From Shinella sp. WSJ-2 (GTDB taxonomy: Bacteria; Pseudomonadota; Alphaproteobacteria; Rhizobiales; Rhizobiaceae), in the NCBI RefSeq assembly GCF_003432075.1, contig NZ_QWBU01000003.1, positions 124,001 through 188,000 on the forward strand: a stretch of DNA of 64,000 nt. Direction: 5' to 3'. Each line of letters starts with the position of its first letter. Position 1 is the stretch's first letter. This document shows, in pieces, positions 7,761 to 10,734 of this stretch. The notes under the pieces were generated by a model that worked only from the letters and a program-made list of their open reading frames with translations, ran no database searches and was not told the origin of the DNA. The translations under genes were made by a program, and so were the position numbers.

Positions 7761-8089
7761 GCCGCGCACTCCCTGTTCGCGCGGCGCTTTGCGCGCACGC
7801 CCTGATGGCGAAAGTTTATGGAAACGCCGTTAAGCATTCCTTGCGGTTTACCCCCTCAAACCTTGCAGGGCGATTTTCATGGTCGCAATATGACAAGGTG
7901 CCGCTTTACGCGCCGCCTTGCCTGTTCTCGCGCCAATACGCGTGATTAAAAGGCATATTATATTGATATATATCGATAAATATTGCAGTGGAGGCAAGCC
8001 GCCTTCATTTCTCGTCTGTCGTCAAATCATGAAGACGCGTCGTTTTTTGACATGTCGAGCCATGATTCTTGCGGTTAGATAAAGACACT
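7761..8089. other. Non-coding region before the cobalamin riboswitch
   Basis: About 330 bp with no convincing gene. The left part is GC-rich. From about 7928 it turns AT-rich and contains an 18-bp near-palindrome (7961-7978). The promoter for the riboswitch-controlled operon must lie in its right half. I cannot fix its -35/-10 boxes with confidence. Confidence 0.6.
7961..7978. repeat. AT-rich 18-bp near-palindrome
   Basis: TATTGATAT directly followed by ATATCGATA, which are reverse complements except for one base. It lies about 110-130 bp upstream of the riboswitch core, in the most AT-rich part of the gap. It could be a regulator site for the betaine demethylase operon or simply promoter-associated AT-rich DNA. 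Confidence 0.5.
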
Positions 8090-8270
8090 CAAGGTGTCGC
8101 CTTCTAGGGAGGGCGGAGAATTGGGAAGCCGGTTGAAATCCGGCGCTGCCCCCGCAACGGTGTTGGAGAAAAAGCGGCAAAAAGCCACTGGACGGAAGTC
8201 TGGGAAGGCGCCGCATCGGTCGCAGGCTTCGTCCTGCATGACCACTCCTCAGCCCGGAAACCAGCCTGGA
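8090..8270 (+). promoter_or_regulatory. Cobalamin (adenosylcobalamin) riboswitch
   Basis: The conserved blocks appear in the right order. They are GGGAAGCCGG with its complement ATCCGGC (8123-8144), the highly conserved GCTGCCCCCGCAAC (8144-8157), GCCACTG (8184-8190), TGGGAAGG (8201-8208) and AGCCCGGAAACCAGCC (8251-8266). These are the J6/3 and B12-box elements of the cobalamin riboswitch class. It lies 120 bp upstream of the oxygenase start codon on the same strand. The outer limits are approximate. Family knowledge says such elements usually switch the downstream gene off when B12 is abundant. Confidence 0.93.
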
Positions 8271-8316
8271 GAAAAGATCGTGACTGGCTGCGGCGGGCGG
8301 CCGGGAAGCGTGCACG

Positions 8317-8336
8317 CCGGGCGTTTTCACGCCCGG
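8317..8336 (+). promoter_or_regulatory. Hairpin between riboswitch and start codon
   Basis: Inverted repeat CCGGGCG / CGCCCGG with a six-base loop (TTTTCA). It has no U-tract after it, so it is not a standard terminator. It is more likely part of the riboswitch expression platform, for instance a regulatory or anti-regulatory stem upstream of the AGGA ribosome site at about 8379. Confidence 0.5.
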
Positions 8337-8387
8337 ATGCCGTCTCCTCCGTGCGCCTCATCCCTAACTGGACTTATGAGGATTGCC

Positions 8388-9629
8388 ATGGATATCCGCA
8401 GCGACGTGCTCCGCAAGCTCAAGAACCGGCGTGAAGGCCACAGCCTCGAACAGGCCTTCTACATCGACCCCGACCTTTATAAGCTCGACATGGAGACGAT
8501 CTGGTATCGCGACTGGCTGTTCATCGGCCATGACTGCGAAATCCCGAAGGCCGGCAATTATTTCACCGTTCAGGTCGGCGATTATCCGGTCGTTATCACC
8601 CGTGACCGCTCGGGCGCGGTCCGCGCGCTGCACAATTCCTGCCGCCACCGCGGCTCGCGCGTCTGCACCCAGCACAAGGGCACCTCGGCCAAGCTCGTCT
8701 GTCCCTATCACCAGTGGACCTACGAACTGGACGGCTCGCTGCTCTTCGCCCGCCACATGGCGGAGGATTTCGACAGGACGCAGCACAGCCTGAAGCCGAT
8801 CCATTGCGAAACCCTCGGCGGCTACATCTTCATCTGCCTTGCCGATGACGCACCGGATTTCTCCGCCTTCCGCGCCACCGCCGAACCCTATCTTGCCCGC
8901 CACCGTCTCGGCGAAACCAAGGTCGCCTTCGAAAGCACGATCATCGAGAAGGGCAACTGGAAGCTCGTCTGGGAAAACAACCGCGAGTGCTATCACTGCG
9001 CCGCCAACCATCCCGAACTCTGCCGCACCTATCCGGAGGCGCCTACCGCCACGGGTGTGCAGGGCGCCAAGGATGATCCTGTCATCGCCGCGCATTGGGC
9101 GAAATGCGAGGCCGCCGGCCTGCCGAGCGAGTTCCGCATGTCGCCGACCGGCCAGTTCCGTGCCGCCCGCATGCCGCTCATCCAGGATGCCGAAAGCTAC
9201 ACCATGTCCGGCGCGCGCGCCGTCCAGCGCCCGCTGTCGAATGATGTACTGGAAAGCGGCATCGGCACGCTGCTGCTCTTCCATTATCCGACGACCTGGA
9301 ACCATGTGCTGGCCGACCACGCCATCACCTTCCGCGTTCTGCCGCTCGGCCCGGAACTGACGCAGGTCACGACCAAGTGGCTGGTCAACAAGGATGCCGT
9401 CGAGGGCGTCGATTACCGGCTCGACGAGCTCACTCATGTCTGGACCGAGACCAACGATCAGGATCGCCAGATCGTCGAGGAAAACGCCTTCGGCATCCGC
9501 TCGCCGGCCTACCAGCCCGGCCCCTATTCGCCGGAGGACGAGGGTGGTGTCATGCAGTTCGTCGAATGGTATTCGAACTTCATGATCGATCGGCTGGACA
9601 ACAAGAAACCGATGTCGCGGGTGGCCTGA
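8388..9629 (+). CDS. gbcA: Rieske oxygenase, glycine betaine monooxygenase-like (GbcA)
   Basis: A 413-residue ring-hydroxylating-type oxygenase. The Rieske [2Fe-2S] ligands are C85-x-H87 and C105-xx-H108. The mononuclear iron histidines are H203 and H208 in NNRECYHCAANHPE. Long stretches such as LVCPYHQWTYELDG and TTKWLVNKDAVEGVDY match my memory of Pseudomonas GbcA, which demethylates glycine betaine to dimethylglycine and formaldehyde. Related stachydrine or carnitine oxygenases cannot be excluded. AGGA before the ATG at 8388 decides the start over the ATG at 8376. The reductase gene follows after one base. A cobalamin riboswitch precedes it. Confidence 0.88.
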   Translation: MDIRSDVLRKLKNRREGHSLEQAFYIDPDLYKLDMETIWYRDWLFIGHDCEIPKAGNYFTVQVGDYPVVITRDRSGAVRALHNSCRHRGSRVCTQHKGTSAKLVCPYHQWTYELDGSLLFARHMAEDFDRTQHSLKPIHCETLGGYIFICLADDAPDFSAFRATAEPYLARHRLGETKVAFESTIIEKGNWKLVWENNRECYHCAANHPELCRTYPEAPTATGVQGAKDDPVIAAHWAKCEAAGLPSEFRMSPTGQFRAARMPLIQDAESYTMSGARAVQRPLSNDVLESGIGTLLLFHYPTTWNHVLADHAITFRVLPLGPELTQVTTKWLVNKDAVEGVDYRLDELTHVWTETNDQDRQIVEENAFGIRSPAYQPGPYSPEDEGGVMQFVEWYSNFMIDRLDNKKPMSRVA

Positions 9630-9630
9630 C

Positions 9631-10734
9631 ATGACGATTGCGAGCCAATTCCGTCACTTCGACGAACTTCACCCCTGGCACGATCGCCACAACCTGCTCG
9701 AATGCATCGCCGCCACCGTGGAAACGGCCGACGTGATGACCTTCACCTTCCGTTCCGATGAGAAGAACTGGTTCCGCTATCTGCCGGGCCAGTTCGTCAC
9801 ACTGGAACTGCCGGTGTCGGAAGACGAGCCGGTGATGCGCACCTATACGCTCTCCTCGACACCCTCGCGGCCGTTCTCCGTCGCCGTGACGGTTAAGGCG
9901 CAGAAGAACTCTATCGGAACGCGCTGGATGTTCGATCATCTGCGCCCTGGCATGACGCTGAGGGCCTTCGGCCCGCTCGGCGATTTCTCCTTCGTGCGCT
10001 ATCCGGCGGAAAAGTACCTGTTCATCTCGGCGGGCTCCGGTGTGACGCCGATGATGTCGATGACGCGTTGGATGGCGGATTGCGCGCCGCAATCCAACGT
10101 CGCCTTCGTCTCTTGCGCCCGCAAGCCCGAGGACCTGCTGTTCAAGCCGGAACTCGAATGTCTCGCCGCCCAGATGCCGAACCTCGCGCTCGGCTTCGTC
10201 GTGGAAGGCCACAATCCGCGTGACGGGTGGCACGGCCTGCGCGGCCGTATCGATGCCGCCCGCCTCTCGCTGCTCGCGCCCGATTTCCGCGAGCGCACCG
10301 TATTCTGCTGCGGCCCCGAACCGTTCATGCGCGGGGTCAAGGACATGCTGAAGGTCTGCGGCTTCGACATGAACCGCTACCACGAGGAAAGCTTCCAGCC
10401 CGCCAATGCGCCCGCTCCGGAGGCGATCGCCATCCGCGCCGGTGCGGGCGAGCAGGCGGTCGACGCTAACGCCGTCTCAACCGTCACCTTCACCATGGCC
10501 GGGAAGGACGCCCAATGCCCCCCCGGCCAGACGATCCTGCAGACCGCCCGCGCCGCCGGCGTGCGCATCGGCGCCGCCTGCGAGGGCGGCCTCTGCGGCA
10601 CATGCCGCGTCATGAAGGTCTCGGGAGAGGTGGAGATGCACCACAATGGCGGCATTCTCGACGACGAAATCGAGGAAGGCTACATCCTCGCCTGCTGCTC
10701 GCGGCCCATCGGCGACGTGCAGATCGAGGCGTGA
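9631..10734 (+). CDS. gbcB: Oxygenase reductase with FAD, NAD(P)H and 2Fe-2S domains (GbcB)
   Basis: A 367-residue electron-transfer partner of the oxygenase encoded one base upstream. The FAD domain carries R70-TYT (RTYTLSS). The nucleotide domain has GSGVTPMMSM near residue 133 and CGPEPFM near 230. The C-terminal plant-type ferredoxin domain has C317, C322, C325 and C355/C356 (CEGGLCGTC ... ACCSRP). It passes electrons from NAD(P)H to the Rieske centre of GbcA. The tight spacing shows one transcript, so it should share the riboswitch control. Nothing is missing. Confidence 0.88.
   Translation: MTIASQFRHFDELHPWHDRHNLLECIAATVETADVMTFTFRSDEKNWFRYLPGQFVTLELPVSEDEPVMRTYTLSSTPSRPFSVAVTVKAQKNSIGTRWMFDHLRPGMTLRAFGPLGDFSFVRYPAEKYLFISAGSGVTPMMSMTRWMADCAPQSNVAFVSCARKPEDLLFKPELECLAAQMPNLALGFVVEGHNPRDGWHGLRGRIDAARLSLLAPDFRERTVFCCGPEPFMRGVKDMLKVCGFDMNRYHEESFQPANAPAPEAIAIRAGAGEQAVDANAVSTVTFTMAGKDAQCPPGQTILQTARAAGVRIGAACEGGLCGTCRVMKVSGEVEMHHNGGILDDEIEEGYILACCSRPIGDVQIEA

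Follow-up and report, generated by a model that had tools for sequence, protein, structure and literature searches.

A locus in Shinella sp. WSJ-2 raises the question of why genes for a Rieske oxygenase and its reductase should be preceded by a cobalamin (vitamin B12) riboswitch. The locus lies in a stretch of 64,000 nucleotides (contig NZ_QWBU01000003.1, positions 124,001 to 188,000 of the forward strand), which was analyzed as a whole and is called the window below. The products of metE and nrdAB are the two classic B12-independent isozymes, and the gbcAB-like pair found here is probably subject to a third B12 isozyme switch that holds a demethylase in reserve under B12 control. Specifically, we consider it likely that the leader senses adenosylcobalamin (AdoCbl) and then switches off a betaine demethylase that needs O2 but no B12 and stands in for a B12-dependent counterpart. 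The elements on which this proposal is built are the following.

8075-8283, + strand: cobalamin riboswitch aptamer (RF00174, 106.4 bits)
8388-9629, + strand: Rieske oxygenase alpha subunit, predicted GbcA/Stc2-like quaternary-amine demethylase, 413 amino acids (PF00355, PF00848; NF058607, 515 bits)
9631-10734, + strand: predicted GbcB-like reductase subunit (FAD, NAD and 2Fe-2S domains), 367 amino acids (PF00970, PF00175, PF00111; NF058606, 381 bits)

The aptamer matches the full RF00174 model (positions 1-189) at a score far above the gathering score of 31.5 bits (E 1.2e-25), and it is the sole RNA family match within the window at the Rfam gathering threshold. Between its end and the start of the Rieske gene lie 104 nucleotides that hold no other gene, and a single base separates the oxygenase and reductase genes. 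An earlier note on this DNA had placed a cobalamin riboswitch directly before gbcAB-like genes and had proposed scoring it with a covariance model. Both the element and its placement are borne out, although the true start lies 15 nucleotides before the 8090 given in that note. The same genome has five cobalamin riboswitches in total, and the remaining four precede CbtA, a BluB-like protein (our own naming; Pfam gives the nitroreductase family), a periplasmic binding protein with a FecCD permease, and a small open reading frame (ORF) ahead of metH.

The oxygenase has both Rieske and catalytic domains and adjoins a GbcB-type reductase, as is expected of a GbcA-type system. The nearest NCBIfam models are those for GbcA and GbcB, but neither cut-off was reached (515 versus 670 bits for NF058607, and 381 versus 500 bits for NF058606). 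Five orthologues (L103, L068, L113, L051 and L033) score 501-527 bits with the GbcA model, and the aligned parts of Stc2 (3vca) and 3n0q score 493 and 497 bits, respectively. Among solved structures with a known function, the nearest is the stachydrine demethylase Stc2, an N-demethylase (529 bits across 391 residues). A better GbcA paralogue that reaches the cut-off was not found in the Shinella genome, where the next best protein scores 136 bits. Homology places the enzyme among the quaternary-amine N-demethylases, and the name glycine betaine monooxygenase, after which the earlier note had called the operon, goes further than these scores permit.

Relatives were gathered by protein search in two sets. 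The first comprises 61 genomes (G numbers), of which 27, including the Shinella genome itself, have a match at 66% identity or more, and the second comprises the best 80 of at least 594 loci in a genome collection (named loci, L numbers). Proteins with at least 66% identity to the window GbcA are treated as orthologues. With the Rfam model, the riboswitch was recovered in 19 of 20 loci and in 6 of 14 loci, the latter including three that are non-orthologous. A covariance model (R1) was then built from 19 of these riboswitch sequences; it gives 198 bits to the window aptamer, which is itself a member of R1. By this model the riboswitch precedes gbcA in 54 of the 80 named loci; among the G genomes it does so in the window and at 23 of the 26 other orthologous loci. 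The pairing is kept in many Rhizobiaceae and Phyllobacteriaceae; the earlier note had suggested a search in other Rhizobiaceae. The last aptamer base is 93-218 nucleotides from the gbcA start in 75 of 75 leaders, and the separate cobalamin-related gene that the note had allowed for between riboswitch and gbcA in relatives was not seen in the 34 leaders that were read along with the window.

Leaders with and without the riboswitch share one further predicted element.

7985-8084, + strand: conserved promoter-region block ending in TTAGATAA (found by profile)

The profile covers 90 nucleotides before the riboswitch and the first 10 within it, and was made from riboswitch-bearing rows. All 28 riboswitch-less loci give a match, 37-175 nucleotides ahead of gbcA (for L063 as the second-best match only, E 0.012), and for this reason the riboswitch-less leaders are judged to have retained the putative promoter block and not the aptamer. 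In one of them (L056:4640-5000) the block ends 78 nucleotides before the gbcA start. A hand-made promoter pattern had matched just 12 of 102 rows and was replaced by the profile, and no match to the sigma-70 consensus was found at 7900-8500 of the window. The genes upstream in the window, encoding an FAD oxidase, Sua5 and DUF6656 as judged by opening residues, recur in 5 of 7 loci listed (L051, L056, L062, L068 and L087), one with the riboswitch and four without it; L041 has two of the three genes and L103 has none.

If this riboswitch controls a reserve enzyme, then a B12-dependent partner should be present, and the Shinella genome encodes a candidate for it. A cluster at C1:333-341 kb encodes MtgB (an MTTB protein, C1:333322-334818), the B12-binding protein MtgC, the pterin-binding methyltransferase MtgD, a MetF-like protein, DUF1638 and PF12225 proteins, and also a formyltransferase-like protein and a PF13769 protein (assigned by Pfam, NCBIfam and protein search). 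MtgE is found at C1:323632-324627, and a MetH-type ORF of 1,271 codons is on C28. The complete MtgBCDE set of MTTB, corrinoid protein, and pterin-binding and homocysteine methyltransferases is thus encoded, which answers the earlier note's call to look for mtgB/mttB-type corrinoid methyltransferases. The MtgC protein does not pass either of two curated NCBIfam models (211 versus 370 bits and 178 versus 310 bits), and the MtgC of aerobes is reported to differ from that of anaerobes (PMC12478193; this and the other papers named below are cited from excerpts). According to the same source, in Ruegeria MtgC and MtgD are needed both to demethylate glycine betaine and to synthesize methionine, MtgB and MtgE are further modules of that system, and the S. 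meliloti Bhmt is argued to be an MtgE.

In another Shinella genome (G006, locus L145:5140-10542), a further MTTB gene (C11:635160-636650) adjoins a Rieske paralogue that is 35% identical (C11:636740-637900), and the locus also has a gene resembling dimethylglycine dehydrogenase, named from its opening residues only.

A first line of evidence for the proposed relationship comes from the joint occurrence of the riboswitch and the MtgBCDE partner. Counts of MTTB (PF06253) cover the 61 G relatives and 79 of the 80 named genomes. Four loci were left out as duplicates (L013, L018, L030 and L032, with proteins identical to those of L039, L040, L049 and L112), as were L064, which carries the riboswitch, and the non-orthologous loci, namely L036, L037 and L038 (58, 48 and 46% identity) plus all weaker matches of the G set. 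Those three non-orthologous loci have no riboswitch, and their genomes have 0, 0 and 5 MTTB proteins. Among the 102 distinct genomes with an orthologous gbcA that remain, 71 have both the riboswitch and MTTB, 27 have neither, three have only the riboswitch, and one has only MTTB. Put differently, MTTB is present in 71 of 74 riboswitch genomes and missing from 27 of 28 riboswitch-less ones, where the G genomes counted as MTTB-less are 96-99% complete. An isozyme switch should be kept only where the B12-dependent partner exists, and this is what was observed, with exceptions and over few independent events.

MtgC, sought in 50 of the 79 named genomes, follows the same pattern. It is present at 90-96% identity in all 23 riboswitch-bearing MTTB genomes tested and in one of 26 riboswitch-less genomes (L056), and it is missing from L050. 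Every one of the riboswitch-less named genomes nonetheless has a cobalamin riboswitch elsewhere that exceeds the family cut-off (26 of 26, or 27 of 27 when a genome with a damaged riboswitch is included), and in all 26 an open frame of 1,264-1,300 amino acids contains a B12 domain like that of MetH. Because genomes that lose the gbcA riboswitch keep these other components of B12 biology, the coupling of the gbcA riboswitch to MtgBC is specific.

On the gbcA tree, no paired comparison runs opposite to the coupling, and a Pagel-type likelihood test favors dependence whether damaged riboswitches are counted as present (likelihood ratio 22.9, p 1.4e-4) or as absent (likelihood ratio 36.2, p 2.7e-7). 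These values were obtained with the gbcA gene tree, a midpoint root and a flat root prior, and with some rates at their bounds.

The damaged riboswitches provide a second line of evidence. Damage was scaled by changes at 85 positions that are invariant in 19 reference riboswitches; the comparison set of 75 includes these 19, and 46 of the 75 have no change at any of these positions. The three riboswitches in genomes that lack MTTB have 22 changes (L050), six (L026) and six (L027), the last two loci having identical gbcA proteins. Only in these three of the 75 is the ACT of the CCACTG core altered.

A third line comes from one genome in which the proposed isozyme set is found next to the two classic ones. 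In a Mesorhizobium metagenome-assembled genome (L109:73-10440), nrdA-nrdB, gbcAB and metE are side by side, each with its own cobalamin riboswitch (122.5 bits before nrdA-nrdB, 92.9 bits before gbcA and 134.5 bits for metE); metE with its riboswitch enters from the opposite side of gbcAB. This genome has both MTTB and MtgC. The arrangement occurs once among 87 loci, examined mostly with 5 kb flanks and in some cases with 1.5 kb.

The small ORF between a cobalamin riboswitch and metH in the Shinella genome encodes a conserved protein of 71 amino acids (L119:4657-4869, + strand, corresponding to G000:C28:148656-148868) that matches no Pfam or NCBIfam family. Similar ORFs were found with a riboswitch in 18 of 20 further loci and with metH in 19 of 21 loci, its own included. 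Such an ORF also occurs behind gbcB in six relatives (L033, L096, L097, L105, L109 and L118); L072 has one that faces gbcAB and carries a riboswitch of its own. Perhaps gbcAB is a third B12-independent isozyme set besides metE and nrdAB, whose riboswitch would shift the betaine catabolism of rhizobia and related bacteria between an O2 route that releases formaldehyde and a corrinoid methyl-transfer route supplying methionine and tetrahydrofolate, with this microprotein of about 60-80 amino acids as part of the B12-scarcity response, but this combined view is tentative and somewhat less likely than not.

The presence of gbcB also varies. Fetched loci without it belong to 16 of 28 riboswitch-less genomes (L034, L062, L066, L067, L070, L073, L075, L077-L079, L081, L082, L084, L085, L090 and L091) and to 4 of 74 riboswitch-bearing ones (L065, L074, L076 and L089). 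The flank searched for L034 was just 1.5 kb, and the window, which has gbcB, was outside this search.

Two candidate elements through which the aptamer may act on expression follow it in the leader.

8286-8302, + strand: P13-type hairpin with a 6-bp stem and the loop GGCGG (found by loop pattern search; expected to kiss the C-rich L5 loop)
8356-8381, + strand: CCUCAU/AUGAGG hairpin over the Shine-Dalgarno (SD) region (by sequence and constrained folding; a weak candidate expression platform)

A kissing contact between L5 and L13 is a feature of this riboswitch class. A P13-type hairpin with the loop GG[C/T/A]GG was found in 74 of 75 leaders by a search that used this loop pattern, L050 being the only leader without one. 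All six stem pairs are kept in 69 of the 75 leaders and at least four in 74, with compensatory (covarying) changes in the stem. The position and loop fit an L5-L13 contact, which we infer by analogy.

Pairing of CCUCAU (8356-8361) with AUGAGG (8376-8381) is possible in the window leader and would span the ribosome-binding region. No intrinsic terminator that could serve as an expression platform was found on the + strand at 7900-8500. With P13 enforced in folding (74 of 75 leaders, L050 having no P13), mean openness of the SD is 0.30, versus 0.32 when folding is free and 0.40 and 0.41 in shuffled leaders. With P13, openness falls short of the free value in 51 of 74 leaders and of the shuffled mean in 54; in the window it is 0.10 with P13 versus 0.16 free. 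Across the leader set, these predicted values are a weak lead toward SD sequestration, and because of this, translational OFF control is something that we infer rather than observe.

Several observations weigh against our proposal. The genome of Ciceribacter lividus (L056) has both MtgB and MtgC, yet no riboswitch precedes its gbcA. Only about six changes are seen for each trait on the gbcA tree, and with at most five supported pairs a sign test is unable to attain 0.05 (median p 0.25; 0.06 if damaged riboswitches count as absent). Changes at the invariant positions are also found in aptamers of MTTB-positive genomes (10 in L107, 7 each in L065 and L074, and 6 in L116), and damaged riboswitches remain above the Rfam cut-off (57.9 bits for L050 and 64.8 bits for L027). 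SD sequestration by a simple duplex, tried as the expression platform, was rejected, with pairing at a shuffle p of 0.1 or less in just 13 of 75 leaders and of 0.05 or less in 10. The window is not among the 13, its SD pairing being no stronger than in shuffled leaders (p 0.91). A gbcB gene is missing from the fetched gbcA locus in 20 of the 102 genomes. Lastly, because the window oxygenase lies below the GbcA cut-off and Stc2 scores alike, homology fails to choose between glycine betaine, stachydrine and other substrates.

Among other explanations, the one that survives best is that the Rieske pair serves one-carbon and methionine balance. When B12-dependent methionine synthesis by MetH or MtgCDE is limited, the pair would supply one-carbon units as formaldehyde, or remove betaine that has accumulated, and would share no substrate with MtgB. 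It is consistent with this idea that metH adjoins gbcAB in 3 of the 87 loci (L072, L095 and L097) and that MtgCDE also acts as a split methionine synthase (PMC12478193). However, because the riboswitch-less genomes have the MetH-like domain, dependence on MetH alone does not predict the riboswitch, whereas MtgBC does, and we regard this explanation as unlikely.

It is less probable still that the coupling is a matter of inheritance, with both traits having disappeared by chance from a few clades (Agrobacterium and the R. leguminosarum group) and the riboswitch having some unrelated purpose. The concentration of 22 of the 27 double-negative genomes in one clade is what such a history would produce, and the sign test on independent pairs leaves room for it. 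Opposed to it are the recurrence of changes in each trait with no contrary pair, the likelihood tests, and the fact that, wherever a genome outside that clade lacks MTTB but retains the riboswitch, the riboswitch is damaged. Least probable of all, and in our opinion improbable, is end-product repression of a pair that makes or salvages part of the corrinoid or performs an O2-dependent B12-linked step (e.g., lower ligand chemistry), since many riboswitch targets, among them the BluB-like protein, BtuF/FecCD-like transporter and CbtA in this genome, do belong to B12 synthesis or transport, but riboswitch-less genomes retain both gbcA and further B12 riboswitches, Stc2 (the closest solved relative with a known function) is an N-demethylase, and a tie to MtgBC is not predicted.

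Under the isozyme switch that we favor, plentiful corrinoid, probably AdoCbl, would close the aptamer and let the P13 hairpin kiss L5, and gbcAB would not be made. Methyl groups of betaine-type compounds would then pass from MtgB to the corrinoid protein MtgC, and on to tetrahydrofolate by way of MtgD or to homocysteine by way of MtgE. A shortage of corrinoid would stall MtgBCDE and open the leader, and the Rieske pair would use O2 and NAD(P)H to demethylate that substrate or a similar one, presumably with formaldehyde as a product. The logic of metE/metH and nrdAB/nrdJ would thereby be carried to a third pair. Isozyme switching had been suggested in the earlier note, and it has gained the MtgBCDE set, the joint occurrence and the L109 locus in its favor, while the identity of the enzyme as then stated is not supported.

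If the proposal is correct, the isozyme rule holds for osmolyte catabolism as well as for methionine and DNA precursors. It would also mean that B12 or cobalt supply decides how these soil and plant bacteria use betaines, either burning them with oxygen or moving their methyl groups into methionine. Furthermore, it would account for a target listed in S. meliloti since at least 2007, for whose riboswitch the excerpts at hand state no role (PMC2245857). S. meliloti bhmt mutants given methionine still grow on glycine betaine (PMC12478193), and therefore another route must exist; the gbcAB locus is a candidate for it, beside the one proposed in that study.

The earlier note knew of no described case of this pairing, but a riboswitch upstream of S. 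meliloti smc00982 was cited from Rfam (PMC2245857) and is listed in PMC2573895. SMc00982 is described as a likely dioxygenase (PMC2848018) and SMc00981 as a putative ferredoxin protein (PMC12542648). At SMc00982 the intergenic gap measures 637 nucleotides, which matches the 634 nucleotides between the DUF6656-like gene and gbcA in S. medicae (L051), and from locus and annotation, rather than from its own sequence, SMc00982 is probably the counterpart of this gbcA. The excerpts of those papers propose neither a function nor a partner for the riboswitch target. Our literature searches, mostly of top-ranked matches, found no paper in which the riboswitch is connected with MtgBCD or with the demethylation of betaine, none with the isozyme explanation, and none combining gbcA, riboswitch and cobalamin, or cobalamin riboswitch, glycine betaine and Rieske. 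Rodionov in 2003 reportedly named B12-regulated ardX-frdX genes (dioxygenase and ferredoxin), and these may be the same pair. The pairing itself is thus already listed, and what is new here is its link to MtgBCDE, the loss of both together, the damage to some riboswitches and the locus that unites nrdAB, gbcAB and metE.

Comparison with known systems places these findings in context. All parts of the Ruegeria pomeroyi MtgBCD(E) system (PMC12478193) have homologues in the Shinella genome, together with DUF1638 and a MetF paralogue; the excerpts of that study mention GbcAB bearers that lack MtgBCDE and draw no link to a B12 riboswitch or to GbcAB control. Relative to Stc2 and GbcA, the window enzyme belongs to the same Rieske group but falls below the GbcA cut-off. 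The metE/metH strategy has been tested experimentally (PMC9600662). As with metE/metH and nrdAB/nrdJ, a B12 aptamer precedes a B12-independent enzyme in a genome that also encodes the B12-dependent counterpart. The gbcAB locus differs from metE/metH in that a Rieske N-demethylase is set against a corrinoid methyltransferase, and repression by B12 is predicted for it.

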